Assembly (NCBI RefSeq): GCF_026151205.1
Contig: NC_087082.1
Coordinates: 16,957,401-17,021,400, forward strand
Direction of reading: 5' to 3'
DNA length: 64,000 bases
Source: Bolinopsis microptera
Taxonomy: Eukaryota > Ctenophora > Tentaculata > Lobata > Bolinopsidae
A model generated the notes under the pieces. That model ran no database searches. It saw only the letters and a program-made list of their open reading frames with translations, and was not told the origin of the DNA. Positions 2,281-46,668 of the stretch are shown here, piece by piece. A program made the position numbers and the translations under genes. Every line of letters begins with the position of its first letter. The first letter of the stretch is position 1.

Positions 2281-3032
2281 TGGTAAACAGTGAAGATGAA
2301 AAAGAAAGTAATCCACCACCTGATACAGCAACATCATCAAATGTTCAAGGAGCAGTACTGCAACCAGAGCCAATACAAGTGCAGTACCAACAGCCAGCAG
2401 CCCGCCTTACAGCCCCACCGCAATGGAAAGCATCTATGAGTTATGAGGAATGGAGACTACAAGTTGAGATGTGGGACAAATTATGTGCAGTCAGAAAAGT
2501 AGACCCCGCAGAGCAAGGGTATGCCTTGTTCAACCTAGTATCTCAACACACTGATCATAATATCGTATCAAAGCTCAACTCAGCAGTAAAAAACAAAGAC
2601 ATCGATGTTCTTGACGGGGAAGGAGTACAAAACATCATGAAGCTATTAGATAGAACATACAGGAAAGATGATACCAGTAAGATGATGAAATCCTGGTCGG
2701 ATTTTATCAATCTTAGGAGAAAGGACAGTCAAGATATGTCAAGCTTTCTCAATAACTTTGATCAAGCCAACACCAACTTGAAAATTAGCAAGATAACTCT
2801 TCCTGGAACTGTGTTAGCATTACACATGCTAGAAAGATCCGGTTTATCAGCAAATGACAAAAAGCTGGTAATGACTGGAGTTGAGTTAGTTAAAACAGAG
2901 TCTGTTGTTGAAGATATGATGAATTCAATCAAGAAATACTTTGGTGAAGGAATCCGTGAGGTTGAAAAGAGACCACAATGTGATACGCCCATCAAAGAAG
3001 AGCCAGTATTCAATGGTGAGACTTTTTTCTGA
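2280..3032 (+). CDS. gag: Copia Gag (capsid-like) protein
   Basis: The 250-codon frame starts with an ATG whose A is the last LTR base. The next in-frame Met is about 50 codons in, so this start is likely. After a Gln/Pro-rich N-terminus comes a helical capsid-like region around residues 50-215. It contains a W-x-L-Q-V-E-M-W segment and an L-D-R-T-Y-R-K-D-D-T-S-K-M segment, typical of Copia gag polyproteins. The zinc knuckle is not in this frame but in the next one, so Gag as written ends before its nucleic-acid-binding tail. The stop TGA (3030-3032) directly follows a T6 run, and the pol frame overlaps it in +1. Confidence 0.85.
   Translation: MVNSEDEKESNPPPDTATSSNVQGAVLQPEPIQVQYQQPAARLTAPPQWKASMSYEEWRLQVEMWDKLCAVRKVDPAEQGYALFNLVSQHTDHNIVSKLNSAVKNKDIDVLDGEGVQNIMKLLDRTYRKDDTSKMMKSWSDFINLRRKDSQDMSSFLNNFDQANTNLKISKITLPGTVLALHMLERSGLSANDKKLVMTGVELVKTESVVEDMMNSIKKYFGEGIREVEKRPQCDTPIKEEPVFNGETFF
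2281..2292 (+). promoter_or_regulatory. Putative primer-binding site
   Basis: TGGTAAACAGTG begins immediately after the 5' LTR. TGG complements a tRNA CCA end, and TGGTA followed by CAG partly resembles the initiator-Met tRNA complement used by many Copia elements, but the match is imperfect. The site overlaps the start of the gag frame. Confidence 0.5.
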
Positions 3033-6000
3033 ATCGTCAGAATCTACACGTTCATCATCAGATCCTGATAACATGTCTGAAGAAGAGGAAGCCTACTACA
3101 CCAATTGGAGAAATAGAGGAAAGGCTTGGAGAAGAACAGATAATAACAGATCATACAACAATCACATCTCAAGATTTAATCGTGACAAAAGGGATAATGG
3201 CAAAGGAGAATACAAGCCAAAGAGATATTCAGATAATGATCGAAGAAGAGATAACTCTAGAAGTTTCAAAAAAGAGTACTCTAAGACATATAAGACAGCT
3301 GATGACTCTAGGGCAACTCAGAAGTTTAACCCCCGGTTGAGATGTAATAGATGCGAATCAGTAATGCATTTGATTAAAGATTGTCCTCATTCAGATAGAT
3401 CAGAAAATGTTAATGAATGTAGAGAGATTTCAGAGATGGAGACAGCAGAATGCCATCAGGTAGCACTTTTAGACTCTGCTTGCTCGAAGAATGTAGTTGG
3501 CGAAGAATGGATTCGTGAGTACATAGATAACCTGACAGAAGAGGACAAAGCACTCCTGAAAGTGTCAGACGCCCGTTCAAAATACAGTTTTGGAGGTAGT
3601 GACCCTATTGCTGCCGCAGATGCGGTGAGAGTACCTTGTATAATTGCCGGAAAGAAGACATTCCTTTGGGCTGATATAGTGCAAAGGAATATTCCATTTC
3701 TGATCTCCAAAGAAGAGATGGCAAAGCGAGGGTTTAAATTAGACCTTGGTACAAGTACGATTGAAGTAGACGGAGAGGTGATCCCTGTTATAACAACCGA
3801 GTCAGGTCTGATTGGCATATCTCTATGGGATTATAATGAAGTTGCTATAGAAGAGCAATGTAATCTAGTCAATCTAGATGACACAGTCAGCAGTATTACC
3901 AAACTTCATAAGCAGCTGGGTCATTGTTCAGCAGAGAATCTGAAAAAGATTACAAAAAATGCAAACGTACAAGGTGAAAATGTGAACAAGGTGATTGATC
4001 AAGTGCTAAAAGAATGTGATGCCTGTGCGAGATATAAAAGAACACCCTCCACACCAGTCGTTGGATTACCTATGGCAACGAAGTTCAATGAGGTAGTAGC
4101 TCTTGATTTGAAACAATTTACTGGAATCAATGGTTATGTGATTTACATTGTTGATATGTTCTCAAGATTCTGCAAAGCTAGGGTGATTTCCAACAAAAAG
4201 CCAGAGACAGTAATAAAAGCCTTTACTATGGAATGGATTGCAGTAGGTATGGGACCTCCAGGAAAAATATTAGTGGACAATGGAGGAGAATTCGCAAACA
4301 ATGAACTTAATGATCTCAGTGAACAACTCAACTTTGAAATTTGTGTTACCAGTGCCTACTCACCTTGGTCAAATGGCTTATGTGAAAGAAACCATGCTGT
4401 GGTTGACAAATCAGTGCTTAAAATGATGTATGACGGGTTTCCATTGAAGATAGCACTTGCATGGTCAATCAATGCCAAGAACACACTGTACAATGTCAGT
4501 GGATTTTCTCCAGTGCAGATAGTGACAGGTCAGAATCCAAACTTTCCTGGGGTATCTTACAACTTGCTACCTGCTAATGAAGGAGCAGATGAATCATTAT
4601 CAAGCGACATTCAAAGGAATCTTAATGCAATGTATCTAAGCAGAAAAGCATATCTAGAGGCAGAGAATTCAGAAAGAGTTAAAAGAGCTTTGAAAAGACC
4701 CTTACGAGATATCAACCAAGACTTTATGATTGGTGATGTTGTATTCTACAAAAGACCTAATATTGAACGCTGGAAAGGACCTGCCAAGATAGTCGGCAAG
4801 GAAGGAAAGACTCTTATACTGAGGCATGGAGGACTGCTTATCAAAGCAGCAAGCTGTAGAATTGTGAAACGAGAATATATAGTGAGTGACGAGCACAACC
4901 AAAACAATGATGATATCTTGGAAACAGAGAATAGCCAACATGATGAAGCAGTCAATCTTAACGATGATCAGTTTGATGAAGCTGCTGAAAACATAGAAGA
5001 AATGCCTATTCAATTTCAAGTGCCAGTGGAAACAGAGGAAATACCAACAGGACAAGAAATTATGAGCTCCTCTCCAATACTTGAAATAGACTCTAAGGTA
5101 ATTTCCAATGAACAAAAACAACAACTCAAGATTAAGTATTTGGAAACTAGACTTCAGAAAAACGATGTTTCGGTCGGAGATACGGTGAAACTTGTTAAAG
5201 AAGGAAAAGAAAATGAATGGGAGACATGTACCGTGACTCAAAAAGGAAAACGGCTTGGCAGAAAAGATCACTGGGTGAAACTTATGACAACCCAAGGTGA
5301 AGAAAAGCTGATAGATTGTACAAAGACGGCTATGTACAAAGCTGATGCTGCTATTGGTGCAGAACCTGGAGACGATCACGAAGAATGTAATGTTGTGACA
5401 ATTCCCACTTCCAGACACAATGAAGATGTGGTTATTAAGGCTAAAGTTATTGAATTGACTAACTGGAAGCAGAGAGAAGTATATGATGAAGTCAAGGATT
5501 GTGATCAGAATGTCATTACAACAACTTGGGTAATAACAGAAAAACCCAGCACTGAACTTGGAGTTAAAGCCCGGTTAGTAGTCCGTGGATTTCAAGAGCA
5601 AAATCAGTCGATTGAAGTGGAGTCACCTACAGTATTCAAAAACACTCTCAAGGTTGTACTTGCTATAGCTGCAAACCAGCAGTGGCAACTAACAACGATT
5701 GATATCAAAGCTGCCTTTCTGCAAGGAAATAAAATTGAAAGAAATGTTTATGTCATACCACCCAAGGAAGCTCATGTAGAAAAAGGTTATTTGTGGAGAT
5801 TGAGAAAGACAGTGTATGGTTTAAATGATGCGGCAAGAGCTTGGTTTATCAGTGTGAAGGGACTTCTTATCAACCTTGGTTGTACTCAATCAGTGTTAGA
5901 TCCTGCTTTGTTCATATGGAGAACTAGTACTGGATTCGAAGGAATACTTGTGCTTCACGTTGATGATTTCTTAGTAGCTGGTACAAAGTCATTCTTTGAT

Positions 6001-6894
6001 ATAGTTGTAAAAGAACTGACATCAAACTTTGAAGCTGGTAAAATATGCAAATCAAAGTTCAATTACATTGGTCTATCAGTTGAGCAGACAGAAGACGGTA
6101 TCCTAGTGAACCAACATGAATATATCCGAGATCTAGCAAATGTCATCAATGATAAAGAACATGAGATATATCATCTGTCGACTGACAGGAAGCTTAGAAC
6201 AATATGTGGTCAGTTGAACTGGGTAGCTGCTCAATCACGCCCAGATTTGTCATTCATGACGTATGATTTAAATGTAACAAAGAGTGTAGATCCAGTAGAA
6301 GCTGTTAAGAAGGCCAAGAAAGCATTCAGACGGATGAAAGAGCTCAACGGTTGTTACAACACAAAGTTCTCAAAGTTAGGAGACATTTCTACACTAAAGA
6401 TTGTGATCTACTCTGATGCATCATCTATGAACCTCGGTGACAAGGTGTCCACAGGAAAAGGTCATCTAATAGTCCTAATGAATGAGGAAGGAAAGATATC
6501 ACCGTTATCATGGGGAAGTCATAAATGTAAACGAGTTGTAAGCAGTACTTTGAGCGCAGAGACTTTGGCATTCAAAGATACATTAGATCATGGAGTGTAT
6601 GTCTCTCATCTGATAAGTGAGATCTACTTCGATCAATTTGATAAGTCAATGGTTCCAGTAATAGGCTTTACAGACAATCAATCATTAGATAAAGCTTTGC
6701 GATCAAGTAAACATGTTGAAGAAAAGAGGTTGAACGTTGATCTGGCTACCATTAGACAAATGCAGCAGAAAGATGAGATTGAAGTAAAATGGGAAGAGGG
6801 AGCTAAACAGCTTGCGGATCCCTTTACTAAAATAACCAGTAACAGTGATAAACTTTTAGTGATGCTAAATAAAGGAGAAATTGTTTCAATTTAA
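2941..6894 (+). CDS. pol: Copia Pol polyprotein (zinc knuckle, protease, integrase, RT, RNase H)
   Basis: This long frame is open from about 2941, without a convincing ATG at its start, and stops at 6892-6894. In order it shows a CX2CX4HX4C zinc knuckle (C-N-R-C...H...C, ~3350) and an aspartic protease with D-S-A at the active site (~3470; most Copia have DSG/DTG). The integrase has an H-x4-H...C-x2-C finger (~3905-4030) and D, D, E catalytic positions in the ALDLKQF, VDNGGEF and CERNH contexts. The reverse transcriptase has DIKAAFLQG and HVDD (the Copia YVDD position, ~5958). The RNase H has SDASS, LSAET and TDNQS (to ~6720). It needs a +1 shift from gag to be expressed. All catalytic motifs look intact. 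Confidence 0.92.
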   Translation: MVKESVRLKRDHNVIRPSKKSQYSMVRLFSESSESTRSSSDPDNMSEEEEAYYTNWRNRGKAWRRTDNNRSYNNHISRFNRDKRDNGKGEYKPKRYSDNDRRRDNSRSFKKEYSKTYKTADDSRATQKFNPRLRCNRCESVMHLIKDCPHSDRSENVNECREISEMETAECHQVALLDSACSKNVVGEEWIREYIDNLTEEDKALLKVSDARSKYSFGGSDPIAAADAVRVPCIIAGKKTFLWADIVQRNIPFLISKEEMAKRGFKLDLGTSTIEVDGEVIPVITTESGLIGISLWDYNEVAIEEQCNLVNLDDTVSSITKLHKQLGHCSAENLKKITKNANVQGENVNKVIDQVLKECDACARYKRTPSTPVVGLPMATKFNEVVALDLKQFTGINGYVIYIVDMFSRFCKARVISNKKPETVIKAFTMEWIAVGMGPPGKILVDNGGEFANNELNDLSEQLNFEICVTSAYSPWSNGLCERNHAVVDKSVLKMMYDGFPLKIALAWSINAKNTLYNVSGFSPVQIVTGQNPNFPGVSYNLLPANEGADESLSSDIQRNLNAMYLSRKAYLEAENSERVKRALKRPLRDINQDFMIGDVVFYKRPNIERWKGPAKIVGKEGKTLILRHGGLLIKAASCRIVKREYIVSDEHNQNNDDILETENSQHDEAVNLNDDQFDEAAENIEEMPIQFQVPVETEEIPTGQEIMSSSPILEIDSKVISNEQKQQLKIKYLETRLQKNDVSVGDTVKLVKEGKENEWETCTVTQKGKRLGRKDHWVKLMTTQGEEKLIDCTKTAMYKADAAIGAEPGDDHEECNVVTIPTSRHNEDVVIKAKVIELTNWKQREVYDEVKDCDQNVITTTWVITEKPSTELGVKARLVVRGFQEQNQSIEVESPTVFKNTLKVVLAIAANQQWQLTTIDIKAAFLQGNKIERNVYVIPPKEAHVEKGYLWRLRKTVYGLNDAARAWFISVKGLLINLGCTQSVLDPALFIWRTSTGFEGILVLHVDDFLVAGTKSFFDIVVKELTSNFEAGKICKSKFNYIGLSVEQTEDGILVNQHEYIRDLANVINDKEHEIYHLSTDRKLRTICGQLNWVAAQSRPDLSFMTYDLNVTKSVDPVEAVKKAKKAFRRMKELNGCYNTKFSKLGDISTLKIVIYSDASSMNLGDKVSTGKGHLIVLMNEEGKISPLSWGSHKCKRVVSSTLSAETLAFKDTLDHGVYVSHLISEIYFDQFDKSMVPVIGFTDNQSLDKALRSSKHVEEKRLNVDLATIRQMQQKDEIEVKWEEGAKQLADPFTKITSNSDKLLVMLNKGEIVSI
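3021..3032 (+). other. Gag/pol +1 frame junction (T6 run followed by TGA)
   Basis: Gag reads ACT TTT TTC TGA. The pol frame reads the same bases one position later and stays open. Either the element uses programmed +1 shifting at a pyrimidine-rich codon before a UGA stop, or one T was gained in the homopolymer and the copy is damaged. The sequence alone does not decide. Confidence 0.6.
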
Positions 6895-12180: not shown

Positions 12181-12300
12181 GAAACCAAAGATAATAGAAG
12201 TAAGAAGTAAAATGTATGACATCACATCATCACACATGTCTACAAAATATCATCGCACTGTGTGAAAAAATATAGTAAAACAAATTTTTAGTAAAACAAA
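12181..12300 (-). mobile_element. LINE-B 3' tail fragment
   Basis: TATGACATCACATCATCACACATG followed by the GCACTGTGTGAAAAAATA region is the complement of the LINE-B 3'UTR. Only the tail is present. Confidence 0.65.
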
Positions 12301-13511
12301 TTTAAATTTTGGTATTTATTAATAACAATCAAAACATATCATATCATAAAAATAAAGCCGCGCGTTGGTTGACTGCCTCAGTATGGTGAATAATTTAAGC
12401 TTGAAGGTGCCCTGCGCATTTACTGAACATTATGCGGCGATCACATGATCACGAGGACCTGTGAGCGCCAAATTTAATTTAAACTTTCTAGAAATCATAC
12501 ATCACTACGAGTTACTCATGCTTTTGAATTATAGGAGTGCGGATTGTCAGGTATTTCATTCATTCATACTTAATCGGTTTAAAGCTGTATATTTAGAGCT
12601 CACTATTGTTTGAACTTTGAAAGCAGAACGTAGATAATGGACAATATACCGACGACAATACCAAGGACCCGAGTGCCGCATTGACTTTTCCGGATCCGTT
12701 TTTACCGAAGGCTTATCCACCAGTTACTCATGCTGCATGTATAGTCTGATAATATTTTGTTTTATCTCTAGCAGGCATTCTGTAAGTTGGAGTGTCGTAT
12801 TTATTATAGAAGAGCCAGCCAACCTCCGCATTACAATCTTTTGTGTGCCAGGTTCGTTTATAAAGTCTAATCATATAATAAGATTGATCCAATAGTCTAA
12901 GATGAACGGTATATCTTAGCTCATCGTTATTAAAATCCTAATGGATGAATTAATCAAGTAATGTTCCCTTCCAACACAACTAAACAACAAACAAATGCTT
13001 GCTCACCAGTGGTGACGCAATCGTAGGGGCATGCAGTTGGTTCAGATAACTCTCACCCCGACGACAGCGTCGAGAAATTATCAAATTATGCATTTGCGCC
13101 ATACTGGACACATTTTATATTTAATATTTTGTGGTTTGTAGAAATTAGTGTCATCTAAAGTATAGCTTAACTGGCGAGCAAGCATCGTCCCACTCGGCGG
13201 GGACGAAAATACCGAGTCCAATCACAGAAAGTTAACCAAAAGATAAAAACAAGAGCTCGGATATCAACAAAAATCACACGCTCCAGACGACGGGGGAAGA
13301 GAGGAAAGGAAGTAAGCTGCTGGGCTCAACAAATTTTGATAATTGTAAACAAATTTGTTCTTGTGCCCTATAATAATTTGGTATTGAGGTATGACCCTGT
13401 ACTGTGCGTGATAATGAAAATGAAAGTGAATGTGAATCTGTAATGCGAACGAAATGAGTTATGGCCAGACGATTCTTCAATTTCAAAATAATAAAGTCAA
13501 AGGACTCTGTT
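12301..13511. other. No gene; right part may be the LINE-A 3'UTR
   Basis: No coding region is recognised. LINE-A ORF2 ends at 13512, so the adjacent sequence is probably its 3'UTR. I could not locate the 3' terminus because there is no second LINE-A copy in the window for comparison. Confidence 0.4.
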
Positions 13512-16500
13512 TTAAAATACAAGCTCATTCTTATCAAAGTTTAATTCTGTCCATTCTAATTCTTCGTACCTTGACTGTATCTTGAGTAGCTCACTTTTCA
13601 GTGTTACTTTAACTAAGTTCGTTGACTTAGTAAAGCTTATCAAACTGTCAATTTTTCGACAGTCGTTCCACATTTTTGTTGATTGATAAATGAAAGAGGA
13701 GGATGGGTTCGGGGTGATGAACTGGTCTGAACGTCTTTGTGATGGTGATCTGTGGAGTAAAGATAGGAGTGAGATTGGAGATTGTAATCTGACAATTTTG
13801 AACAGTTCTAATAGACATGTGTATTTGTACAGGTTGTGGACGGTAAGAAGGCCGTTCTTGTTAAACAACGGCTTTGTATGCTCTTTTTCAAAGAATTCTC
13901 TTCCTAGGATTTGTTCATCTATACAACGTGTTCTGGCACATGTTCTAAATTTATCTAGATATGCTTCAAGGTCACCAAATAGTATTCTGATACATTTTTT
14001 CTGAGTGATGAAGATAGGTTGAAGCATATTATTACTCGACCCACCCCATACCGATATTCCAAATCTTAGGTGTGACTCAAATAACGTGTGGTACAATTCT
14101 TTATGGTGTTTTTTCGGGATAACGTGTCGTATTCTACTGAGTCTTCCGATCTCACACCTAAGTTTCGAGTTGAGGGCTCTTATTTGAACATCCCATTTTA
14201 GCTTTTCGTCAATAATAACACCTAAAAACTTGGTCTCTTTAACTTGCTTTATTACCGTATTTTTTAGAGTTAGTATATATTCTGATTCGTTATCTGCCTC
14301 ATTATCAGTAGCTGTACGTGACGGATTGAAGTGAATGTAGCAGCATTTCTTTATATTTATATGTAATAGATTGCATTTCATGTACTGGTGTAACAAACGG
14401 AGAATTTCGTTTGCTCTTGCATACAGTTTTTTTCTACATTCATCTACTACGAATATGTTTGTGTCATCTGCAAATAGTATGAACTTGCCCAGATCAGTTG
14501 TTCTAAATAAGTCGTTAACATATATTATAAATAGCAAGGGTCCGAGACAAGAGCCTTGGGGAACTCCAAAGAGAACAGGCAGCTTGTCAGACTCTTCGCC
14601 CAGTACAGAGACATATTGATATCTATTAGAGAGATAACTAGCGATGAGTCTATTGGCGTTTCCACGTATTCCATAGTTGTCTAGTTTATTAAGTAGTTTT
14701 TCATGTGAGATCGTGTCAAACGCTTTAGATAGATCAATAAATATTCCAAGTACATGCAGTTTTTTGCTAAGACAGGATTCTATGTAATTCACTGAGGAGT
14801 TGAGGGCATGGCTTGTGGAGTGATTTTTTCTAAATCCATACTGGTTCTCGTAAATCATTTTCTGGGACTGAAAGAAGCTATACAGTCTGTTGTAAATAAT
14901 TTTTTCAAATATCTTACCAAAAACAGCTAAGGTTGATACTGGCCTATAGTTTTCCAGCAATTCCTCATTATCCTTCTTATAGATCGGACTGATTCTCCCA
15001 GTCTTTAAATCATCTGGGAATACTCCATTCCTCATGCATTCACTGTATAATAAAGATAGTATAGGACAGATCACTTTAGACGATTCTTTAACTACATGTA
15101 TTGGGATGTCGGATGACTTCCCATTCTTCAGTTCAGATATAATCATTCTAACCTCGTCAGCTGTACAGTCATTAATGAAAATACTGGACGTGTTTGCTCT
15201 AGGCAGGTAGTCATAAAAACTAGGAAGATTGTTAATAGTTAGTTCTCCAATTTCATTATATGCCCCGTTTAAATTAGACGCTAGAGAAACAAAATACTTA
15301 TTAAATTCATTGGCTATTACTCTACGATTGGTTATCTTCTCATTGTTTATAGTAAACAGTGGTTTTATTTGCCGTTTCTGTTTGCCCCGTATTTGATTAA
15401 TCAGTTCCCATGTCTTCTTACTATTACCGTTTGTGTCTGCAAATTTTCCCATGAAATACTTAGTTTGAACATCTTTGCGATCTTTTTTAACCATCCTTCT
15501 ATAATCCTTATAAGTTTTGTATCTAGAACGTTTTTCACAACATTTCAAGCATTGACATGTTCCACCTTTATAATCAGTTTCACCGAGTTTACATTTTTTC
15601 TTTCTAACTTTAGCCCAATTGTCATAGAGTTGGTGCTGATGCTTGATTTTGGCTATAAGCCCAGGTGTGATCCATGGGTTATTTTGTGTAGTTCTTTTGG
15701 AAGACTTAGGGGTTGCCAACTTACACGTTTTATCGATACTACTTTTGAAAACATCATGAAATACCGTGAAGTTGTCAATTACTTTATTCTCTAATTCATG
15801 TTCCAAGTCCTTTACAAAAGAGGTAACATTAGACTTACAGTAGTCGTAATATTGTTTATATTTTAAGTTACTCTTAGTGGATCCCATACTCTTTTCAAAT
15901 ATTTGAAAGACTGGTGAGTGGTGGGATATACGATCAGTAAGTGTGCCTGAGGCTATTATACTCTCTACATCGTTAGTTATAATATTGTCAATACACGATG
16001 CTTTACAACCTGGCTTCTCATGAGTTGGCAGAGATATTAGGGGAAAAAATCCTCTACTGAACAGGACTTCCTCATAACGTTTTACAGTCGCATTATCCTT
16101 ATTATGTAGATCAATGTTGAAATCACCTGCCAGGTAACTGCATTTCGGCAAATTATCGAGAATTGCTGAGAGTTCTAATAATGCAACATTTACATCACCA
16201 CTTGGAGGGCGATACACTACACCAACAGTGACCGGAGTATTCTTGCTGCTTATCGTAACAAATAGAGTTTCTAGGTTTTCAGATATATGGGACAAATTGC
16301 CATTTACTGTAGCACTGAGGGTATCACATACATAAAGAGCGACTCCAGTGCCTTTTCTTTTATCTTGCAAAGTGTTTTGGTAGAAACTATTGTATCCAGT
16401 CAGTTGGTAAAGGTCACTTAATTCGGGGCCTTCATTTGTTTCTGCTAAAGCAATGATCGAAAATTTCATATATCTCTGTAGTTCTATTGCCAGAGTATCA

Positions 16501-16880
16501 AAGTTCGATTTATTACCATCGATATTTTGAAATAATAATGATGAGTACTCGTTCATTTGGTTGCAAAATGTTTTATTAAATTCTTTAACACTATATGGGT
16601 TACAGTTATTGAGTAATCGGTTGATGTTTACAAGTGTTTCATCAATGTCAGTACTATTATTTTCAGAGTCAGTATCTTCATATATAAACGGATTGTAACG
16701 AGTACTTGCTAAGTGTACACAGTTAGGGCAGTAAAAATCTTCATATATTTTGTTTGTACTGGATTTAGTATAGCATTTATGGTGCATAGCACAGTCACAC
16801 CTACAACATTCAGCAATGAATTGGCCAATGGAAATGAATTTTGTACAGACAGGGCATACCTCTTTGGTCAATTTATTCAT
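13512..16880 (-). CDS. LINE-A ORF2: zinc finger, AP-type endonuclease, reverse transcriptase
   Basis: 1122 codons, uninterrupted. An N-terminal PHD-like finger uses C9, C12, C25/C28, H33/H34, C36 and a distal C-P-N-C pair near residue 50. An apurinic-type endonuclease follows at ~95-330 (FQNIDGN, LAETNEG, VVYRPPSG, AGDFNIDL near residue 250, SHHSPVF). The reverse transcriptase spans ~590-870, with YRPVST, FIDLSKAFD, GVPQGS (~772) and the catalytic FADD (~802). The C-terminal tail has no RNase H that I can see. It makes the nick and copies the element RNA at the target site. The ATG overlaps the ORF1 stop as ATGA. Confidence 0.93.
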   Translation of the reverse strand: MNKLTKEVCPVCTKFISIGQFIAECCRCDCAMHHKCYTKSSTNKIYEDFYCPNCVHLASTRYNPFIYEDTDSENNSTDIDETLVNINRLLNNCNPYSVKEFNKTFCNQMNEYSSLLFQNIDGNKSNFDTLAIELQRYMKFSIIALAETNEGPELSDLYQLTGYNSFYQNTLQDKRKGTGVALYVCDTLSATVNGNLSHISENLETLFVTISSKNTPVTVGVVYRPPSGDVNVALLELSAILDNLPKCSYLAGDFNIDLHNKDNATVKRYEEVLFSRGFFPLISLPTHEKPGCKASCIDNIITNDVESIIASGTLTDRISHHSPVFQIFEKSMGSTKSNLKYKQYYDYCKSNVTSFVKDLEHELENKVIDNFTVFHDVFKSSIDKTCKLATPKSSKRTTQNNPWITPGLIAKIKHQHQLYDNWAKVRKKKCKLGETDYKGGTCQCLKCCEKRSRYKTYKDYRRMVKKDRKDVQTKYFMGKFADTNGNSKKTWELINQIRGKQKRQIKPLFTINNEKITNRRVIANEFNKYFVSLASNLNGAYNEIGELTINNLPSFYDYLPRANTSSIFINDCTADEVRMIISELKNGKSSDIPIHVVKESSKVICPILSLLYSECMRNGVFPDDLKTGRISPIYKKDNEELLENYRPVSTLAVFGKIFEKIIYNRLYSFFQSQKMIYENQYGFRKNHSTSHALNSSVNYIESCLSKKLHVLGIFIDLSKAFDTISHEKLLNKLDNYGIRGNANRLIASYLSNRYQYVSVLGEESDKLPVLFGVPQGSCLGPLLFIIYVNDLFRTTDLGKFILFADDTNIFVVDECRKKLYARANEILRLLHQYMKCNLLHINIKKCCYIHFNPSRTATDNEADNESEYILTLKNTVIKQVKETKFLGVIIDEKLKWDVQIRALNSKLRCEIGRLSRIRHVIPKKHHKELYHTLFESHLRFGISVWGGSSNNMLQPIFITQKKCIRILFGDLEAYLDKFRTCARTRCIDEQILGREFFEKEHTKPLFNKNGLLTVHNLYKYTCLLELFKIVRLQSPISLLSLLHRSPSQRRSDQFITPNPSSSFIYQSTKMWNDCRKIDSLISFTKSTNLVKVTLKSELLKIQSRYEELEWTELNFDKNELVF

Positions 16881-18919
16881 GGGTACGGTACGTAACCTTC
16901 CCCATGTTGAGTCGCAGCAGCAGCAGGAGAGGAACCACCCATCGTCTGGGAGTATAAGCGATTGTCAACTTTATCCGATCTCTTCTTCCTTCTATCAGTC
17001 CCTCCATTCATCCTTAAAAGTATTGTATTACGTATAAGAACCCCCAGTTTTGCTGTACCACTCCAATTGAGGTGTAAATAGTCCGGTCTCTGGTTTCGTC
17101 CAATGTTCCTAGAGAATTGCTGGCTTAGGAGCCCAGCCTCATCACAGAACATGTCAAAACCAGGTACCAAAGTCACACCAAAGTTGGAATGGAGCAGCTC
17201 CTTAAAAATTAATTCATTATAATGTGCAACTTTACGATTTAGCTCAACGAGTTTGGTTGGCAGCAGCGGACACACAAATATATTCGCTTTGGGGTTAAGC
17301 GCTTGGATCATTTCTACTTTCTGAACAAATGGTTTAAAAACATTGTTCTTTATATCAGCGGTATTTTTGATCTCAGGTTTCCTGATATCATTTATACCAC
17401 ACATCAAGAGGACATTCCTGTATCCACATGAAACTGTAGGATTTATATCCCCCACTACCGGAGCAAAATACTGTTTTCCGGGGAGCCACTGCCCAAATGA
17501 TTTTTTGGGGTCCAGCCCGAATTTGAGACCACCAGTATGCGAGTCTCCGATGATGCATGTAGAGTTCCTGTTTCTAAAGCTAACTGAACGAAAAGTTAGG
17601 CTGTATCTCACCCCACCAGTTATTGCCCCATCCTCGATACAGTGGCTGTAGAACTCTTGGCTGCGTCGAGTCATGCGATACATGGATCTTGGTACACATG
17701 TATGGTCAAGAGCCATATGATCCGTCTTCTTATCAAAGAATTTGATGTTGCACTGGCCTCCAATAGAAACAGTGAAAATTTCGGATTCAGGGTGGATGGT
17801 AGTTTCATCATCCGAGTGTTTCGGTAGGGAGCCATCCTCTTTGAAGCGATTGATCAGCAGGCTATTGATCTTCGGTTTTTCACCACTACAGAATGCACCA
17901 TTGATTTTCTCCACTAGATTGGAGAAGCTAGTTGAAGCTAGTTGGCCATTGGATGACTTGGAGCCATTATACTTGTATGGTTCTCCCAAAGAATACACAG
18001 CACGAGCTCCCTCCACAACAAAATCCTCGTCAAGTGATTGGCAGGCAAGGAGGAGAGTTTCCTGCTCTTCTGTGGTAATAAACTCTTCTATAGCGCCTAC
18101 AACTGGTTCTTCTTTTGATTGGAGATGCTCATAAGCTATTAGGTCTGGGCCAGGGGCAAGTGAAGAACTGGTAATTTGGACGTTTAAATGGTCAGAAGAA
18201 GCCAAAGAATTTCGCTCAAGAGTGTTCAAGGACTGTCTAATGGCTGTTAGCTCCTGATTCGTCTCCAGAGACTGCTTGGAATTCAGCTCATGGAGATTCT
18301 TCTCTATTTTTTCCATGAGATCGTTGGTCTTGGATGAAGATTGAGCACTTACTTGAGGAGTAGAAAAGTCCTGCAGTTGCTTGTTCAACACTTTAATCTG
18401 TTCTGTTAGGCCACTATCAGACTCAGAAACCTTTCCGAGTGTAGAGTCAACTGAAGTTTTCAGCTGCTTTAGATCTCCTTCCATCACTTCAACCCATGCT
18501 GGAGCAGTGCCCTTGTCACTAACCAGTAGGTGCTTGATATGGAGGTCAAGGTTCTGGATGGCAGCAATGCTGTCGTTTAGACTGTCAAAGTCCACCTTGG
18601 CAAGCTTTTCACCAAAAGCTGTGATGGTATTAAGCTTCTCTGTGGCAATAGCTGTCTCACACTGACTGTTAGATTTTTGAAGTGTCAGAGTGTTCCTACA
18701 CACATAACACACATCTGCAGCAGTTTCGAATGTGGGAATTGGTGAAACCAAACAAAAAGGGCAGTGCCAATTGGTCATGCTGTTGACATTTTTCTGGTTG
18801 AGTCCATTCATAGTTAGACAGTCTATGTGCCAATATTGCTTGCACTTTACACAGTCAATCTTCCATGACGATATTGACTTACTACATGGACATTTCGTCT
18901 TGTCCCTGTGTGAACTGTC
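16877..18919 (-). CDS. LINE-A ORF1: PHD finger, coiled coil, AlkB-like oxygenase, SGNH esterase
   Basis: The first ATG is at 18811 (644 codons), but the same frame is open to 18919. That upstream part encodes the first half of a C4HC3 PHD finger (CPC, CVKC, WHIDC) completed by WHCPFC, so I extend the CDS and call it 5'-partial. Numbering from the ATG, a helical coiled-coil-like region spans 60-215. An AlkB-type domain spans ~245-410, with Fe ligands H332-x-D334 and H390 and 2-oxoglutarate arginines R402 and R408 in RYSLTFR. An SGNH hydrolase spans ~418-600 (GDSH S424, GINDI, DYLH D577/H580). PHD plus esterase is known in CR1 ORF1. AlkB enzymes oxidatively remove alkyl groups from nucleic acids, so a role on element RNA or cDNA is an inference. 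Confidence 0.9.
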   Translation of the reverse strand, partial: DSSHRDKTKCPCSKSISSWKIDCVKCKQYWHIDCLTMNGLNQKNVNSMTNWHCPFCLVSPIPTFETAADVCYVCRNTLTLQKSNSQCETAIATEKLNTITAFGEKLAKVDFDSLNDSIAAIQNLDLHIKHLLVSDKGTAPAWVEVMEGDLKQLKTSVDSTLGKVSESDSGLTEQIKVLNKQLQDFSTPQVSAQSSSKTNDLMEKIEKNLHELNSKQSLETNQELTAIRQSLNTLERNSLASSDHLNVQITSSSLAPGPDLIAYEHLQSKEEPVVGAIEEFITTEEQETLLLACQSLDEDFVVEGARAVYSLGEPYKYNGSKSSNGQLASTSFSNLVEKINGAFCSGEKPKINSLLINRFKEDGSLPKHSDDETTIHPESEIFTVSIGGQCNIKFFDKKTDHMALDHTCVPRSMYRMTRRSQEFYSHCIEDGAITGGVRYSLTFRSVSFRNRNSTCIIGDSHTGGLKFGLDPKKSFGQWLPGKQYFAPVVGDINPTVSCGYRNVLLMCGINDIRKPEIKNTADIKNNVFKPFVQKVEMIQALNPKANIFVCPLLPTKLVELNRKVAHYNELIFKELLHSNFGVTLVPGFDMFCDEAGLLSQQFSRNIGRNQRPDYLHLNWSGTAKLGVLIRNTILLRMNGGTDRRKKRSDKVDNRLYSQTMGGSSPAAAATQHGEGYVPYP

Positions 18920-18920
18920 A

Positions 18921-20325
18921 TATATAATAATAAATATCTCCCCACCAACATTAATTAATTATCAATTTATACAATATTTAAAAACAATTTCATCAAAAAC
19001 ATTAGATCCTATTTTAAAAACTTCCCAGTGGAATAAAGATTTATAAAACGCTTCTTTGCCACATAAGGATGGAACCAAAGATAATTGTTATGTTTCTCTT
19101 TATTACTGACATAACTGGCTCCCTCAATACTTACTAAAACTTCATTAGAAACATTCCAAAAAAAGCAATCATTTGTAATACTTTTAGAAATCATATCTAT
19201 CTTATATCCTTCTAATTTAATTTTAAAACCTAAAACTGTCACAGAGTTCTTGACGTCCGGAGGGAGTTTGTTCCAATATGGAATAACTCGCTCCGGGAGA
19301 AAAGACTTCTGGATATTCTTGACCTTTGTCACACTTTTACTACATCTATTGGATGAAACCAGATTAAGACCTGATCTGCTTGGTCTGAACAAGTCTGAAC
19401 CATAATCAGTCATACCATTAATAACCTTAAAAGCTTCAATAAGGTCCCCACGTATTCGCCGCTCTGCCAGCGTTGTCAAATTGAGGATTTCCAGTCTACG
19501 GCTGTAAGGAAGAGTACCCACCTCATCAATCAGACGGGTAAACCGCCTCTGGACGCTCTCCAGCTCCAAAACAGTCCCCCAACTTCCATGAGCCGCAGGT
19601 GGATTCCACAATTGGACACAATACTCAAGATGAGGTCTTATTAAAGCTTTATATATAGCAATCATAACAACCTTTTCTCTAATAACTAAATTCCTTACAA
19701 TCCAACAAATCATAGGATTTGCCTTAGCGATACATGCTTTGATCTGTTCGTTCCAAAGCAGAGAGCTATGGGTAATAACCCCCAAATCTTTTTCCTGTGC
19801 AGATACTTCAAGTTCTATACCATTTACCTTATAATTTGAATGAATAGGAGAGGGCCTAGAACTGACCCCTGAGGAACACCAGATAAAACATGTTTAACCT
19901 CAGACCATTGTCCTTCTACAGAAACCCTCATAGTCCTGTCTGTCAGAAAATCTTTAATAACATCTAAAACCTTTCCTTTGACACCAAAGCCTTCCAATTT
20001 AGACAGAAGTCTAAAGTGGGGGACTGTGTCGAACGCCTTACTAGAAGATAGAAGATCAACCGGGGCACCTTCATCTAAAATGTCAAGAATGTCATCAAAT
20101 GTCTCTAAAAGATTAGATAAACACGATTTACCCTTAACAAATCCATGCTGATGCTTCGAAATTCGATGTTCTAGAAAATTTAATACATGTGCTCTCACCA
20201 ACTTTTCATACACTTTGCACAAAATACAAGTTAATGAAACTGGTCTATAATTTAAGGGGTCTGATTTAATACCCTTTTTAAACAATGCTACAACAGATGC
20301 AGATTTCCACACTGCAGGTCCCCGA
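18921..20325 (-). pseudogene. LINE-B copy (minus), 5'-truncated and broken RT
   Basis: The reading frame survives in two pieces, 19824-20325 (RT N-terminal part with YRPVSL, KSCLSNLLETF, GVPQGSVLGP) and 19009-19785 (thumb and C-terminus). A frameshift/deletion lies between them and removes the FADD catalytic region. The segment expected to read YFDFSKAFD is altered to DLLSSSKAFD. The 3'UTR extends to 18921. It cannot encode an active polymerase. It abuts a plus-strand copy head-to-head at about 20325. Confidence 0.88.
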
Positions 20326-22800
20326 TTGGCAAAAGTGATCATGTCAGTGTGGTAGTCGATCTAAGTGTTTCTTTAGATTCAATTAAATGTAAAGAGAAGA
20401 TTCTGAAACCATCATGGGGTAAAATAACTAATGATGATATTTTAAAGTTTAGTATTGAAAATATTAACTGGGATTTTAGTTGCTCTAATGATGTTCAGCT
20501 TATGTGGGATGAGTTACATGGCAAACTTACGACTGTTGCTGGGATAGTACCGACTAATTCGGTCTATAACAACAACAGACCTGTGAAGCTGCCATGGGAC
20601 ACATCCTCATTGAAGCGCATGAGAAAGAACAAAGATAAAGCATGGACTGCATTTGATATTGAACCTTCTAGTGTTAATCTTAGTCATGCAAGTAGTAAAC
20701 AGCTCATATATGAGAATGAGGAAGTGAAAGCAAAGATAAGATATGAGAAGAAGATAACTTCCAATTTAAAGATTAATTGTAAATCATTTTATTCTTATTT
20801 GAGAAATAAGAGAAAGGTTAAAGCTTCGGTACCAAGTTTAGATAAGGAAGATGGTACAAGGACAACTAGTGCAGGGGAGTCTGCAGAGGTACTTGCAAGT
20901 GCCTTTAGTTCGGTGTTTGTTAATGAGCCACTTGGCCCATTACCTAGAAGTTATAGTAAGAATACTAATAGTATATCTGATATTGTTATTACCTTTGATA
21001 AGGTTAAAAAGGAACTATTAAAGCTTAATATTTTTAAAAGCACTGGCCCAGATGGGCATCATCCAAAGCTGCTTAAGTCCCTAGCTGGAGATGATAGTTT
21101 TGTAACAGCTCTTACTAAATTATTTAGTGCCTGTAGTGATACTGGAAATCTTCCGGAGATATGGAAGTCGGCATCTGTAGTTGCACTTTTTAAAAAGGGC
21201 TCTAAGTCTGACCCTCTTAACTATAGACCAGTTTCTCTTACTTGTATTCTTTGTAAAGTTTATGAACAGTTTGTTAGATCCCATGTGTTAGAATTTTTAG
21301 AAGACCGTATTTCAAAGGACCAACATGGGTTTGTTAAAGGAAAATCTTGTTTGTCAAATCTTTTGGAGACTTTCGACACTATACTTAATTTAATAGATGA
21401 AGGTGCTCCTGTGGACTTATTTTATTTTGATTTTAGTAAAGCTTTCGATTCTGTTCCCCATTATCGCTTGATTAACAAGCTAGAGAGTCTAGGGATAACT
21501 GGTAAAGTTTTAGATGTAATTACAGATTTTATCTCAAATAGAACTATGAGAGTGTGTGTAGAAGGTGAAACTTCAGAGTGGAAGATTGTATGGTCAGGAG
21601 TTCCCCAGGGATCAGTCCTTGGACCATTACTAATTGTGTTATTTATTAATGATTTACCAGATAACATTAAAAGTAAAGTTAAAATATTTGCTGATGATCT
21701 TAAGCTTATAGCTAATGCCTCCGAGCATGAAACTATAGTTAATGATCTGAACGAACTAGAGATGTGGGAGAGTAAATGGCTTTTAAAGTTTAATCCTACT
21801 AAGTGTTCGGTAATGCATTTAGATGTTAACGATAACCCAAGATCAAGTTATTCTCTTAATGGAGTTACATTGGCAGAATCTGTACAGGAAAAAGACTTGG
21901 GAGTTATAACCCATAACTCTCTGCTTTGGAATGAACAGATTAAGGCTTCAATATCTAAAGCCAACAGAATGATATGTTGGATTGTTAGAAATCTGATTAT
22001 CAGGGAAAAATCTGTGATGATATCCATTTACAAAGCTTTGATAAGACCCCATTTAGAGTATTGTGTTCAATTGTGGAGTCCAGTTGCGGCTCATGGAAGT
22101 TGGGGGATCATCTTGGAGCTGGAGAGCGTCCAGAGGCGGTTTACCCGTCTGACTGACGAGGTACTCTTCCATACAGTCGTCGACTGGAAATCCTCAATTT
22201 AACAACGCTGGCAGAGCGGCGAATACGTGGGGACCTCATTGAATCTTTTAAAATGATAAGTGGTTTGGCCAATTACGGAGCTGGTTTGTTCAGTATGAGC
22301 AGATCTGGTCTTAATGTGGTATCAAACAGTAGATGCAGTAAAAGTAGGAGTAAAATGAAGAAAGTCCACAGTTCTTTTCTTCCGGAGAGGGTGAGACCAT
22401 ATTGGAACAAACTCCCCTCGGATGTCAAGAATTGTGGGACTGTGTTAAGTTTTAAAATAAGATTAGAGGCTTTCAAAAAAGAGATTATTTTAAACGGATC
22501 TGTAAATGACAGTCATTTTTGGTATGTTTCGGACGAAGTATTAGGAAAGATCGAGGGATTAAATTATGCTACTAATAAAGAGAAGCACAATGAATATCTT
22601 GTGTGTAATCCTCATGTTGCTAAAAAACGCTTTATCAACTTATATAGTAGTGGAAAGTATGTAAATTAGATACATTTTAACTTGGTTGTTTAGGCCAATA
22701 TATTAAAGATAATTGTTAAACTTTAGTAGATATATTTTTGATGATGTGTGATGATGTTTGTGTCATTATATTTTGATTTTGATTTTTTTTAAAGGTAAAG
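20326..22800 (+). pseudogene. LINE-B copy (plus), endonuclease end plus complete RT, frameshifted near the C-terminus
   Basis: The frame opens in the endonuclease C-terminus (GKSDHVSVVV at ~20328) and runs to 22202. It encodes a full RT with YRPVSL, FDFSKAFD, GVPQGSVLGP and FADDLKL. A frameshift near 22160 moves the remainder to 22253-22669 (KLPSDVKN, KKRFINLYS). The 3'UTR ends near 22800. This is the best RT-domain copy of LINE-B in the window, but it lacks most of the endonuclease and ORF1. Confidence 0.9.
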
Positions 22801-27412: not shown

Positions 27413-28036
27413 TCAATACAGAAATGCACTGTCGTATTCCTCATCTGATAGTTCATGTATAACTGCAGTGTAAATAATCTGGACCACATCAATAGCATAT
27501 ACATAGGGCGGGATACCTCTATCATTCTCCACAGGCCCCCTACACATCGGGCAGGTATCATACCGGAACTTGTCCACCCACAGCTGTAGACACCGCTTAC
27601 AGAAGCAATGTCCACAGGGCAGTGACGTCACTCTTATCATCCTCCTCATGTTTTCCATGCAGATCGGACAGTCTGCTTTCTCTTTGACATTTATAAGACC
27701 GAGTTCCTTGAACAAGGTGGCTACATATCTGATTATCTTAATAATAAGGTACACTCCCCCGAGCAGAGCCACTAGAGAAACAAACACAAATTCTGAGTAA
27801 GATAGCGTGAACTGCTGAACTAAAACCACCTTATTCTGAGTAAACGTACAGGAATAATTAGCGCTGTGGAACAGCCTGGATCGCAACTCGTAATACTGGC
27901 TCAATATGGAGGAGGAAGGTAGTGCCCATTCTGTTGTGGAGATGAGAGATTTGGACATAAACAGTAGTCCGAGTATGTTGATGTAGAGGAGGATAAGAGA
28001 CGCGGTACACACGAAGGAAGGTAGGTTAGTTATCAT
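27413..28036 (-). CDS. Membrane RING-finger protein (probable E3 ubiquitin ligase)
   Basis: A single-exon frame of 207 codons. It has hydrophobic segments at residues ~8-27 and ~83-102 and a C3HC4 RING: C123-x2-C126-x14-C141-x-H143-x2-C146-x2-C149-x12-C162-x2-C165. The spacing is canonical. Two membrane passes with a RING after the second suggest an ER or endomembrane E3 that recruits an E2 through the RING. I cannot assign an ortholog. The N-terminus could be incomplete if a 5' exon exists, but the frame starts with ATG followed by a hydrophobic segment. The neighbouring LINE remnant downstream is unrelated. Confidence 0.82.
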   Translation of the reverse strand: MITNLPSFVCTASLILLYINILGLLFMSKSLISTTEWALPSSSILSQYYELRSRLFHSANYSCTFTQNKVVLVQQFTLSYSEFVFVSLVALLGGVYLIIKIIRYVATLFKELGLINVKEKADCPICMENMRRMIRVTSLPCGHCFCKRCLQLWVDKFRYDTCPMCRGPVENDRGIPPYVYAIDVVQIIYTAVIHELSDEEYDSAFLY

Positions 28037-30610
<2,574 letters not shown>

Positions 30611-36934: not shown

Positions 36935-39900
36935 ATGACGGATACAGTGGACTACAGTTACTACCGGGACACGCTAGAGGGGTTGGGGTGTCCTTACATC
37001 AGTGCTCTAGACAACGAGTCTCTCAAAGAACTTCTTTTCAGGTTACTTGTTATTATGTTATGTAATATTATATTACTAATATAACGTTATATTATAGATT
37101 ACTTTTATAGAGTAATATATTATTCAACTAATTCGAGGTTTTCATCTAGAATTTCAACTAATTCTTCATTATGGAGTACACCTGGTTAAACGCTTCCATC
37201 CCATTACATAATGCTCAATAATTGTTATAGATTTGCAGTTTTGTACTTAGTGTAAAACTAATTACTATGATATATCGCTAAATTATCTGCAATATTACCT
37301 CATCAAACGGAGGTTTGACTGTACAGTAAAACAGGGGTGATTTTCTTCATGAGGGGGCCAAAATCTTACTAGACATTAGAGTTAGCACGCGCTTTGGCCG
37401 CAGCATGATTTTCAAAAACAGCAAAACGTTCAGTGTCAACCATAGTGTAGTGCCTGTAAAAACTTTTAAGTTTATCGAACGATGGCCTAAGAAAATAAAT
37501 ATTTCGGGGGAAAATGACATCTTGAAAATTTAGTATTTTTCAAGAATAAAATACGGCTTGTATCGCACGTACTTATCCGACTGCTTGTATCGTGTACGTA
37601 TTTGTCCCCCGGTACGATACGTATTTCTCCTCTTATATCATGATAGCATGATTAGGGTAGCATGAAACGTAGAGAAAAGTGTTTTCTAGGGACAAAAGTC
37701 AAGGGGGGGGGGGGGGGGGGGGGGGGGTCAGGCCATGATTACGTAATATTTCTGTCAGGAGCTGAGGGGGGTTGGGTCTTGATTACGGTTGATTACGGAG
37801 GGGTGGAGGGGATAGAAATTGCTAAAATATTGATTACGTAACATGTGAACGACCCCTTACGCTGACGACTGTAATCTCCCCACAGAGCAGGAGAAGCCAG
37901 ACTGAGGTTCTTTACGTGGCTGATCAGTAAACTGTCTCCCCACATCGACACGGAGCTGAACAGTCCTGTCCTCTCCGCCCATGTCAAGGACTCAAAGATT
38001 CAGAGGTATGCTATGTTGTATTATTTAGTGGTACTCAATTGTGTTCATATGTGTTTAATTTTATCATGTTAATACATGTTTTACTTTTTGATAGCTCGAA
38101 ATGAGCTTATCGTTAAAATTATTGAACCGTCTTTATTGGATATGGGGTATTCATAAGCAAAGATATGACAAAAAACTGTTTTTCGGTTAAAATAGGGAAA
38201 ATAACTATTTACTATAATATTTAAAGTAACAAAATTTACCGAAAGTCCAAATGAGTTAAAATTGAACATTCGTCATAAAGTTATAACTATGGGAACTTAA
38301 AATTAAAATCTCATATCTAATCGCTATTATTAGGGTTAAAAAACTATTTAATATTTTTCAAGAAAAAGTAGAAATTAAACCGTAATGTATCATGTATTAA
38401 TTAAGTAGCGTATCCAGTCATATTTCTTCCAGTAAAACCAAGAAGTCCATTTCTCTGCTCCAGAACAATTTACCTCACTCCTCGTCAGTGTTGCAGTGGT
38501 GTTTTGACAGATGGGCTATCAGAGCATCATCTAGGAGATGTCCACGGAATTCTGCGAGTTGTTCCCAACGGTCTCGTAGGTCCTCCAGCAGCTCCGTTGT
38601 TACTTCCTAAATGTTATCTCGTTAGATTTGGCGCATTACGGCATTATTTTGGTCTTGAAATGAATCTACAAATGGTTCAGCTGTATTACATCCTTTAGGG
38701 ATCTGTAACCGATTCAATCTAAATGCCAATACAATATCTACATGTTAGAAACGTTAAACATTGCTAATTATCACCTACTTGCAGACCTAAACTTACCATT
38801 CCCGTCTAGCATGATATTCTCACCTTGTTGTAATAGTCGGACAATTGAAGGAGTCCCCATCGGTTGTTGCATGTCTCCACAGCCTCTGCAGTAGGTTGTG
38901 AAGTAGGGGGCGGTGCTGTGGTCGTCCTGGTAACTTCGTGAGTGTGGGCAGAGCATGTCAAGTTGAACTTAACAACGTTGCCGTGCCTCTCTGTTTCGTC
39001 ACCCAGTAGCGTGGTCCATGACAGAAAGTTATCTTCAGCTAGAGATTCCTCGTAGCTGGAGCAGATACCAGAGCTGTACATACCAGCTACTTCCTCGTCA
39101 GATAATCTGCGTTTGAAAATGTTCAACTTTGCTAGTTCCCCTGCGAACGATTTTCCTGAGTAGAAATCTGTATCAAACGGGGATCTATGATGATGCTGTC
39201 CAATTACAATAGCTCTTTTATTTATGTCAAACTTTCTTCCTGACGATGTTGTTCTTGTTCCAACCTTCTGTCCGTTATAGTAGAGTGATTTAGTCCTGCT
39301 ACTAAAGGTCCAGGTCAGGCACACGTGGTACCATTGGGAGTGGACTGGAGTCACATTGTGAGGAGCCATTGTTAATAGATAGGCCCAGACCAAGTTATCA
39401 GAAAGGGTTATCTCGTCACGGTTTATGGTTCTATAGTGAAGTATACATCCTGTGCGACTCTCTGGACTAAGTTGTTTAACCCACGAGCAGAGAGATAAGC
39501 TTTCCTCCAATGGTGCCATGTTGGGACTTAGCATGATGTAACTCGTCAGATCATCTCCAAATCTTAGAGCTATGTTGGGGTCGTGGCAGAACACTGTTGT
39601 TATCATGACTATCAATGGCAGCAGCCTCAGGGTGACCATTTTATTTCCAGCCTAGAAAACGATTTACGGATCACTATAGAACGAAAGAGATTTGAACTAA
39701 GGTATATGATAAATCAATCAACTTTACTCACTAAAGTTTGTACGACGAATGTGTGATAACTGTTTATCCACGATTATCAAATCCAATTAATCATTAGGTT
39801 AAGAAATGACACGTCGAGAAATTTAAATCCTTCTGTTAACCATAATGAATTTAAAATTCGATGTTTTAAACTTTGCCTCAAATGTACAGCATTATAGAAG

Positions 39901-44301: not shown

Positions 44302-46019
44302 ATGAAGATAATCACCTGGAATGTAAATGGTCTGCGCACTCTTGACAACTTTCGACAACACATTAGCCTCCTTGATCCTGATATCCTCTGCTTACAAGAA
44401 ACCAAAATCTCAAGAGCCCAGTTAGGTACATTTTATTTATTTGTGCAAGTATAGTAGATTGTATCATTAATCGTACAAGTGCTTACTATTGTTATATTAA
44501 TTGACAACCGAAAACTTCAATCGGCTGGATGTACACTTACCACCAAGAATACAATGAGATCATAATGTCTCCAATAGGTATTAGATTAAATTTTGTTATG
44601 AAATTAATAAATGTAAATTTGATTATAAACATTTGCAGATAACGAGCTTGCAAAATGTTGTGATTTCTACTCGTTTTTCAACTACCCATTAAAGAAACAA
44701 GGTCAGGCTGGAGTTGCTACTTATGTCAAGAAGGCATACTGTCCTCACTTTGTCGATCTTCTTGCTGATAATTTAGACTCTGATCAAGAAGGTTTTTACA
44801 TTTTCTTATGACCTTGTTCTCATCCACATTCATTTGAATTTAATTTGCATATTTAAAAGCTGAAGTCCTATCTATTTAACATAGCAGTGCCAACTTACTC
44901 TGTACATATGAATGACATAAATATGTATTGACGTTTCTCATCCAAGCGATTTCCATCAGGTTGTTTACTTATTCCATCTTAGGCCGAGTGATAGCAAGCT
45001 ACCACAAGAAAAGTGATGGAAAAATACTGGTTATTGTAAATGTCTATGTACCTTGTGCATATCCTGGTGATGGTGAAAAGTACGAAAAGAAAATAAAATT
45101 TCTTGAAAATCTGAAAGCTCATGTTTCCAAACTAATTGAGGAAAACAATGATGTTGTGTTAGCAGGAGATCTTAATGTGAAAACTCGGATTATTGACAGT
45201 GCTGAAGCATTCGAAAATAGGCATAATTCTAAGTTTATTGCAGAATGGCATAGTTCACCTGATAAAATTATTTTCAATTCTTTTCTTGATGATCACTTGG
45301 TTGACTGTCTTCGGTATCTATATCCTAACAAACCAGAATGCTACACATGCTGGAATGCTGGATTAAATGGAAGGATCAACAACTATGGAACCAGAATTGA
45401 CTACATTCTTCTATCAAAATCAAGTAAAACTTTGATAAAATCATGCTCAATTATGTCAGACATAACTGGCTCTGACCATTGCCCATTTTCAACAGAGATT
45501 GATTTCAGTGTTTTGCCCAGTCCAACTGTTCCACCAGAATGCACAATATTTTACCCTGAGCTGCGAGGAAAGCAAACAAGTCTCTCATCTATGTTTTCTA
45601 AAAGGAAGGCCGAAATGATGATTGAAAAGAATAGTACACAATTAGTCAGTCATCCTGGAAAAAAACAAAAAACCAACAGTGGTCTAGGAGCAACTCAAAA
45701 ACAATGTACTCAGACTAAATTGATGTTCTCTGCTAAATGCAGCAAAGTACAGAAACCCCAAGCACTTCCTAATCACAAAAGAAAGGCAAGCTCTCCTCCA
45801 AATACAGCAACTCCCAGCAGTGCTGTTTCTGTAAAGTCACTTTTGAGAGGCTTACCTACACCACCAGTATGTTCAGGTCATCAACTTAAATCGTCTTTAA
45901 AGACTGTTACAAAAGAAGGTCCTAATTTTGGAAAAAGATTCTACTGTTGTTCGTTGCCCATAGGCCCTTCATCATCTAAATCATCCAGGTGCAATTTCTT
46001 TCAGTGGCTGGATAAGTAA
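44302..46019 (+). CDS. apex2: AP endonuclease 2 (APEX2)
   Basis: Three exons: 44302-44425, 44639-44791, 44983-46019; phases agree, giving 437 codons. The exonuclease III-type nuclease domain shows WNVNGLRT, LQETKIS with E33, AGDLN and GSDHCP, all catalytic positions intact. The QTSLSSMF segment after the catalytic domain fits a PCNA-interacting box. The C-terminus is a GRF zinc finger (C-x2-H, GPNFGKRFYCC, C-x-FFQW). APE2 processes 3' ends during base-excision repair and feeds ATR-Chk1 signalling; the GRF finger binds single-stranded DNA. The order nuclease, PIP box, GRF is that of the family. The CCDC138-like gene starts 650 bp downstream on the same strand. Confidence 0.93.
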
Positions 46020-46661
46020 TCGGGATTTATAAGTACTGAAATTTATGCTAAATTATATTGTATTTTGATTTTGAATTATGACACATTTGCTTCTTTTATA
46101 AAAGTTTGATACTTACAACTTATTAGTAGGAGCTGTTACGGGGATTATTTGAAATTTTGAACATTTAAATTTTGCCAGCATTCTTAATGAAGCTGGTTTC
46201 TAGACCATTTCAACGCTTTAAAAACGATATTATGTATGGAGTAAATCTGGTTCCTTATATATTAGTATATTATACTATTGTGTCCAATGATTTGTTATGT
46301 TGCCAAATCTGTTGCAGTTTTTCCCGTAAGAGCTTCTAGTATATAAGATAATATATTTTTAATAAAAATATGTTTTATTTTTTAGAATTTGGATTGAGAG
46401 CATTCATTTGCTTGATTTTTAAACTTTGGTTTTATGTGTGACCCCATAGTTTTTGTTTGGGTAAATTTATTATTATCAATTCGGATCTATCCCATGAGAT
46501 TGTATCATTTCACAAAGTTTTTAATGCATTTGTTTGGTCAAATAATCTCATGACTCATGTCTTAATATAAATCATCTTAGTACCAAAAATTGAAATTGTC
46601 GTTATAATTCATAACACTGAATTAATACAGAAATATCAAGTTACCCTTTTCATATTTGCAG
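46020..46661. other. APEX2 3'UTR and short intergenic region
   Basis: AATAAA at about 46359 may be the polyadenylation signal. The region ends with the acceptor TTTCATATTTGCAG, seven bases before the next start codon. Confidence 0.55.
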
Positions 46662-46668
46662 CGAGAAA

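Follow-up and report, generated by a model that had tools for sequence, protein, structure and literature searches.

The DNA analysed here, called the window below, is a stretch of 64 000 nucleotides from the genome of Bolinopsis microptera (contig NC_087082.1, positions 16 957 401 to 17 021 400). Its minus strand carries a 5'-truncated copy of a non-LTR retrotransposon, LINE-A, at 12273..18920 (about 6.65 kb), with limits set by homology to three other copies (99.2–99.4% identity) and an uncertainty of about 10 bases at the 3' limit. The longest sister copies found measure about 6.95 kb. The 5' end of the window copy, at 18920, lies inside ORF1; target-primed reverse transcription often leaves such 5' truncations. 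Four copy ends were compared: the element terminates in a short tandem repeat (12273..12310, minus strand; about two copies of a 14–16-base unit) without poly(A), and no convincing target-site duplications were found among these four copies. Copies of the window family are 99.2–99.7% identical across 6.6–6.9 kb in the B. microptera assembly, a sign of recent LINE activity.

The 5' end of LINE-A is adjoined by frames of another RVT_1-type LINE (19009–20360, minus; 20265–22669, plus); the profile scan of this second element covered 20265–22199, and its minus-strand frames were judged alike by eye. The window also includes a 1323-residue frame with integrase and RVT_2 domains, representing a Copia-type LTR element (2923–6894, plus), a RING-finger protein frame (27413–28045, minus), a Pentaxin/laminin-G-like frame (38806–39651, minus) and a coiled-coil protein with a CCDC138_cc match (46621–47676, plus). 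A further frame (44916–46019, plus) combines an endonuclease/exonuclease domain with a GRF zinc finger, presumably the domain pair of AP endonuclease 2.

An ORF1 search of the 264.7 Mb assembly gave 1076 candidates, of which 64 were scored; all 64 matched, and the aligned stretch is stop-free in 60. Twenty LINE loci, from twelve contigs of 15–26 Mb, were examined. Both ORF1 (at least 678 residues) and ORF2 (at least 1121 residues) are open in 16 of them, where open means stop-to-stop, with start codons putative and some copies 5'-truncated; in the locus L014, for example, the first Met of the ORF2 frame occurs only at 611. In the remaining four loci, ORF2 is broken (L015, L016 and L023) or cut by the end of the examined stretch (L024).

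ORF2 (13512..16880, minus) is predicted to encode an N-terminal zinc finger, an APE-type endonuclease and a reverse transcriptase. Its start overlaps the ORF1 stop in the motif ATGA (16877..16880, minus); 12 of the 20 loci end ORF1 with ATGA, and where ORF2 is long (16 loci) the motif lies in its frame in eight. The reverse transcriptase matches Pfam RVT_1 with E = 1.6e-37, and FADD is present in all 16 long ORF2s. The endonuclease match is weaker (Exo_endo_phos, 20.7 bits, under the Pfam cut-off of 24.5). LINE-1 ORF2p matches ORF2 in the PDB search (E = 1.2e-19; the alignment begins at residue 168–175), and no RNase H match was found in Pfam at E ≤ 0.1. CR1/L2 elements typically have an APE endonuclease and a reverse transcriptase, no RNase H and short 3' repeats. 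These predicted features are all found in LINE-A, a likeness of domain content and 3' repeat. The Cys/His-rich zinc finger opens ORF2 ahead of the endonuclease (16719–16859, minus), an arrangement that is unusual to our knowledge.

The minus-strand frame 16880–18958 encodes 693 residues. The ORF1 remnant itself occupies 16877..18920 (minus; frame residues 13–693 plus the stop), and the frame stays open to 18958 via flanking DNA. The order of the ORF1 domains is PHD-like finger, probable coiled coil, AlkB, SGNH esterase. The PHD-like zinc finger (residues 16–75; 18734..18913, minus) is recognized by its Cys/His spacing, with a block pLDDT of 44–74. It matches the CXXC-type zinc finger protein 1 weakly in the PDB (E = 0.062), the Pfam scan of ORF1 gave no PHD match at E ≤ 0.1, and the finger profile is matched by 70 of 179 ORF1 proteins (see below). 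The probable coiled-coil region (residues 85–253; 18200..18706, minus) consists of long helices in a structure model of moderate confidence, some segments having pLDDT below 50. Residues 86–290 are only 7–32% identical to protein P0001 in 41 of the 42 other ORF1s.

The SGNH/GDSL esterase domain (residues 462–650; 17009..17575, minus) includes a GDSL_2 match at residues 502–634 that is below the Pfam threshold (22.5 bits; cut-off 32.9). A PDB search matches it to entry 4c1b; with the single window sequence, the search gave weak matches only (best E = 0.039). S473 is present in 43 of 43 sequences, and N523, D626 and H629 in 40 of 40 each, three sequences having gaps there, so that the predicted SGNH catalytic residues of type IV LINE ORF1 proteins are present. 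Gly521 is replaced by Ala in five of 40 sequences, and also in the ORF1s of the L011–L013 subfamily. An NCBIfam scan gave nothing beyond one chance-level match.

Between the coiled coil and the esterase lies the AlkB domain (residues 280–461; 17576..18121, minus), supported by Pfam, PDB profile and fold matches. The Pfam profile 2OG-FeII_Oxy_2 (PF13532) matches residues 312–457 with E = 1.3e-11 and 45.6 bits, well above the curated cut-off of 31.2, and the predicted structure has the double-stranded beta-helix fold. The predicted Fe(II) ligands are H381 and D383 in the motif HSD (17810..17818, minus) and H439 (17642..17644, minus); the motif RYSLTFR (17588..17608, minus) supplies R451, predicted to bind 2OG, and R457, the AlkB-specific second Arg. 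HxD...H iron ligands are among the AlkB family features listed in the available text of PMC544882. All five ligands are kept in the alignment of the 20 loci. A sequence-only reading of this DNA had proposed an AlkB ligand set in the LINE ORF1 (H332, D334, H390, R402 and R408, counted from an internal Met at residue 50, hence the offset), with an AlkB-type arginine spacing; both the ligands and the spacing were recovered, and the profile and structure checks that it had suggested gave the matches described above. That observation is confirmed, and the interpretation put on it is supported in part. Membership of the AlkB family of 2OG/Fe(II) oxygenases is near certain. A chance motif is ruled out by the Pfam, PDB profile and fold matches.

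Three protein searches yielded 178 homologues, which together with P0001 make a set of 179. Retrieval was by exact 5-mers, which favours conserved words; one of the searches found 181 relatives at E ≤ 0.001 among 8000 candidates scored, and PF13532 is precomputed in 118 of the 120 matches listed for these 181. All 179 proteins match both the AlkB and SGNH profiles, the presence of AlkB in every homologue being a consequence of queries that were AlkB-centred or AlkB plus SGNH. H381, D383, E385, H439 and R457 are present in all 179 proteins and R451 in 178, with a constant R451–R457 spacing of six. Gln takes the place of the predicted 2OG-binding Arg in just one member, protein P0084; the closely related P0090 has Arg. 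The median pairwise identity of the domain is 40% (3000 sampled pairs), and 15 of 181 alignment columns reach 178/179.

The dN/dS ratio of the AlkB domain was estimated by the Nei–Gojobori method for 17 pairs of loci. The six informative pairs, which are not independent of one another, give 0.07 (L014/L015), 0.13 (L010/L012), 0.15 (L010/L011 and L017/L019), 0.17 (L016/L021) and 0.19 (L017/L020). Five close pairs give 0.29–0.60, from 3–12 changes only, and three close pairs have no AlkB changes. The three distant pairs comprise two that are saturated and one with a ratio of 0.21. The AlkB domain is under purifying selection. It is also linked to the esterase in evolution: AlkB and SGNH distances correlate with r = 0.81 (175 proteins), and AlkB and finger distances with r = 0.53 (68 proteins). 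The domain is a real, standing and conserved part of the ctenophore LINE ORF1 and is likely to be an active enzyme. The ORF1s of L010 and L011 are mosaic, with no differences in 68 finger codons, dS of 0.30 in AlkB and saturation in the esterase, pointing to recombination between LINE families.

Only eight of the 178 homologues carry an organism name; all are from ctenophores (one Bolinopsis, seven Mnemiopsis leidyi). The closest named protein is B. microptera LOC134813758 (P0003), 97% identical over query region 285–480, and a cnidarian or lophotrochozoan host is rejected on this ground. Mnemiopsis has the PHD type (P0027 and P0170) and, in a separate branch, a PHD-less type (P0143), according to a tree of 92 of 175 proteins plus five loci, with the L011 row disregarded. 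Restriction of the AlkB-bearing LINE ORF1 to ctenophores is likely. Scans of viral contigs (23 pattern matches) and of prokaryotic genome contigs (eight) gave no relatives by tblastn; the patterns were partly esterase-derived, and a distant prokaryotic or viral source is therefore compatible with these empty scans.

Among solved structures, the best sequence and fold matches of the LINE domain are ALKBH2 and ALKBH3. ALKBH5 and FTO are absent from the 48 PDB sequence matches at E ≤ 0.5, and the fold match to the ALKBH5/m6A type is weaker than that to ALKBH2/3. Sequence and modelled fold thus favour an ALKBH2/3 type over an ALKBH5/m6A type among solved structures. In the BFVD fold search, many AlkB folds match, some scoring above the best PDB match, and viral AlkBs match about as well as ALKBH2/3. 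An enzyme of the m6A type would remove m6A from the element RNA and so evade host surveillance, as proposed for an orchid Gypsy AlkB. We consider this explanation unlikely.

ALKBH2 and ALKBH3 reverse the same lesions as E. coli AlkB, and base lesions on the Watson–Crick face interfere with reverse transcriptases. The available text of PMC544882 describes repair of 1-methyladenine and 3-methylcytosine by the E. coli enzyme and a possible role of the human homologue 3 in repairing RNA. We propose that ORF1p belongs to the RNP and unites several domains: a PHD-like finger, a coiled coil, an AlkB dioxygenase and an SGNH esterase. The dioxygenase, which is conserved and probably active, would be an ALKBH2/3-type dealkylase of nucleic acids that depends on Fe(II) and 2OG and acts in cis on the RNP. 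From the Watson–Crick faces of A and C in the element RNA it would strip methyl groups (m1A and m3C), and it may clean the nascent single-stranded cDNA too. The ORF2 reverse transcriptase would thus be spared block or mutagenesis during target-primed reverse transcription. Catalysis, substrate, action in cis and the benefit to reverse transcription are what we infer, and we regard the proposal as a whole as evenly poised between right and wrong.

The charge of the domain counts against this template-clearing mechanism: the AlkB domain is acidic (pI 5.2, median 5.5) and the esterase basic (median 9.4). The acidic domain leaves room for a protein substrate. Some ALKBH proteins act on proteins, and together with the PHD-like finger an oxygenase of this kind could modify histones or RNP or host proteins, guiding integration or escape from silencing. 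The finger is seen in the 70 proteins mentioned above, but the other 109 ORF1s, some of them N-terminally incomplete, have no finger-profile match and nevertheless keep AlkB, and the nearest solved relatives by sequence and fold, ALKBH2/3, are nucleic-acid repair enzymes. We regard a protein substrate as rather improbable.

The esterase ORF1ps of RepBase had no known structural RNA-binding domain as of 2013, according to section 13 of PMC3905857. The AlkB domain would accordingly be the first fold acting on nucleic acids in an esterase-type ORF1p; we know of no earlier one. It could also supply the missing RNA binding as a simple holding module, with no need for catalysis; both the strict conservation of the Fe and 2OG ligands and the acidic pI speak against this, and we give it little credence. 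Slightly less credible still is host-wide alkylation repair in trans, by which the selfish element would pay its way by protecting germ-line RNA and DNA. An ALKBH2/3-type domain, present in many copies and under purifying selection, speaks for such a role, but AlkB evolves jointly with SGNH, and its fusion to a coiled coil and an esterase would argue for action on the element. Finally, an artefact (chance motif, chimeric assembly or single host-gene insertion), for which no supporting evidence was found, can practically be dismissed, AlkB being present in 20 of 20 loci on twelve contigs and in Mnemiopsis and metagenome proteins.

LINE ORF1 proteins have hitherto been classed by their RRM, PHD and esterase modules, and to these a conserved enzyme that dealkylates RNA or DNA would bring a reaction on the nucleic acid itself. 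If true, the dealkylase proposal would suggest that alkylated or methylated bases in transposon RNA genuinely hinder retrotransposition, in one early-branching phylum of animals at least, and that different RNA-copying parasites have met this obstacle with one enzyme family. The ctenophore element would also provide a natural coupling of an RNA dealkylase with the reverse transcriptase of a non-LTR retrotransposon.

CR1/L2 LINEs have a short 3' repeat, as does the ctenophore LINE. Esterase-type members (type IV; ZfL2-1) also resemble it in the coiled coil (a probable one here) followed by an SGNH esterase, with PHD in some, and in an ORF2 with endonuclease and reverse transcriptase; the ctenophore LINE differs by the addition of AlkB before the esterase. 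In the available texts, a term search found 'AlkB' and 'oxygenase' 0 times in the LINE ORF1 classification (PMC4120745) and in a bdelloid retroelement paper (PMC5408684), and 'AlkB' 0 times in PMC12221973. No AlkB in a LINE was found among the titles and abstract openings listed by full-text searches of a collection consisting mainly of open-access papers. Within that scope, the novelty suggested by the sequence-only reading stands for LINEs but not for retroelements in general, since an AlkB-family domain is likewise borne by an orchid (Phalaenopsis) Ty3/Gypsy element, whose ALKBH5-like ORF is active on m6A in vitro (PMC9289625, available text). The orchid element is an LTR retrotransposon that carries AlkB in an ORF of its own; this AlkB falls within the plant homologues of ALKBH5 and is reported from two Phalaenopsis species only, whereas the ctenophore LINE family is deep and diverse. 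That the ctenophore lineage fixed an ALKBH3-like dealkylase in ORF1p as a template-repair step, apart from the orchid ALKBH5-like domain and perhaps also from the AlkB of RNA viruses, is a tentative conclusion, held at just under even confidence.

With ALKBH2 and ALKBH3 (PF13532) the LINE domain shares the HxD...H...R.....R pattern and the double-stranded beta-helix; it differs in its place in ORF1 between coiled coil and esterase, its acidity and its identity of about 20%. AlkB domains have long been known in RNA viruses. In the replicases of plant RNA viruses, which are likewise parasites that copy RNA, the AlkB-family ligands are present (PMC544882, available text), and there are fold matches in BFVD. 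The viral domain lies within the replicase of an RNA virus, and the ctenophore domain within the ORF1 of a LINE.
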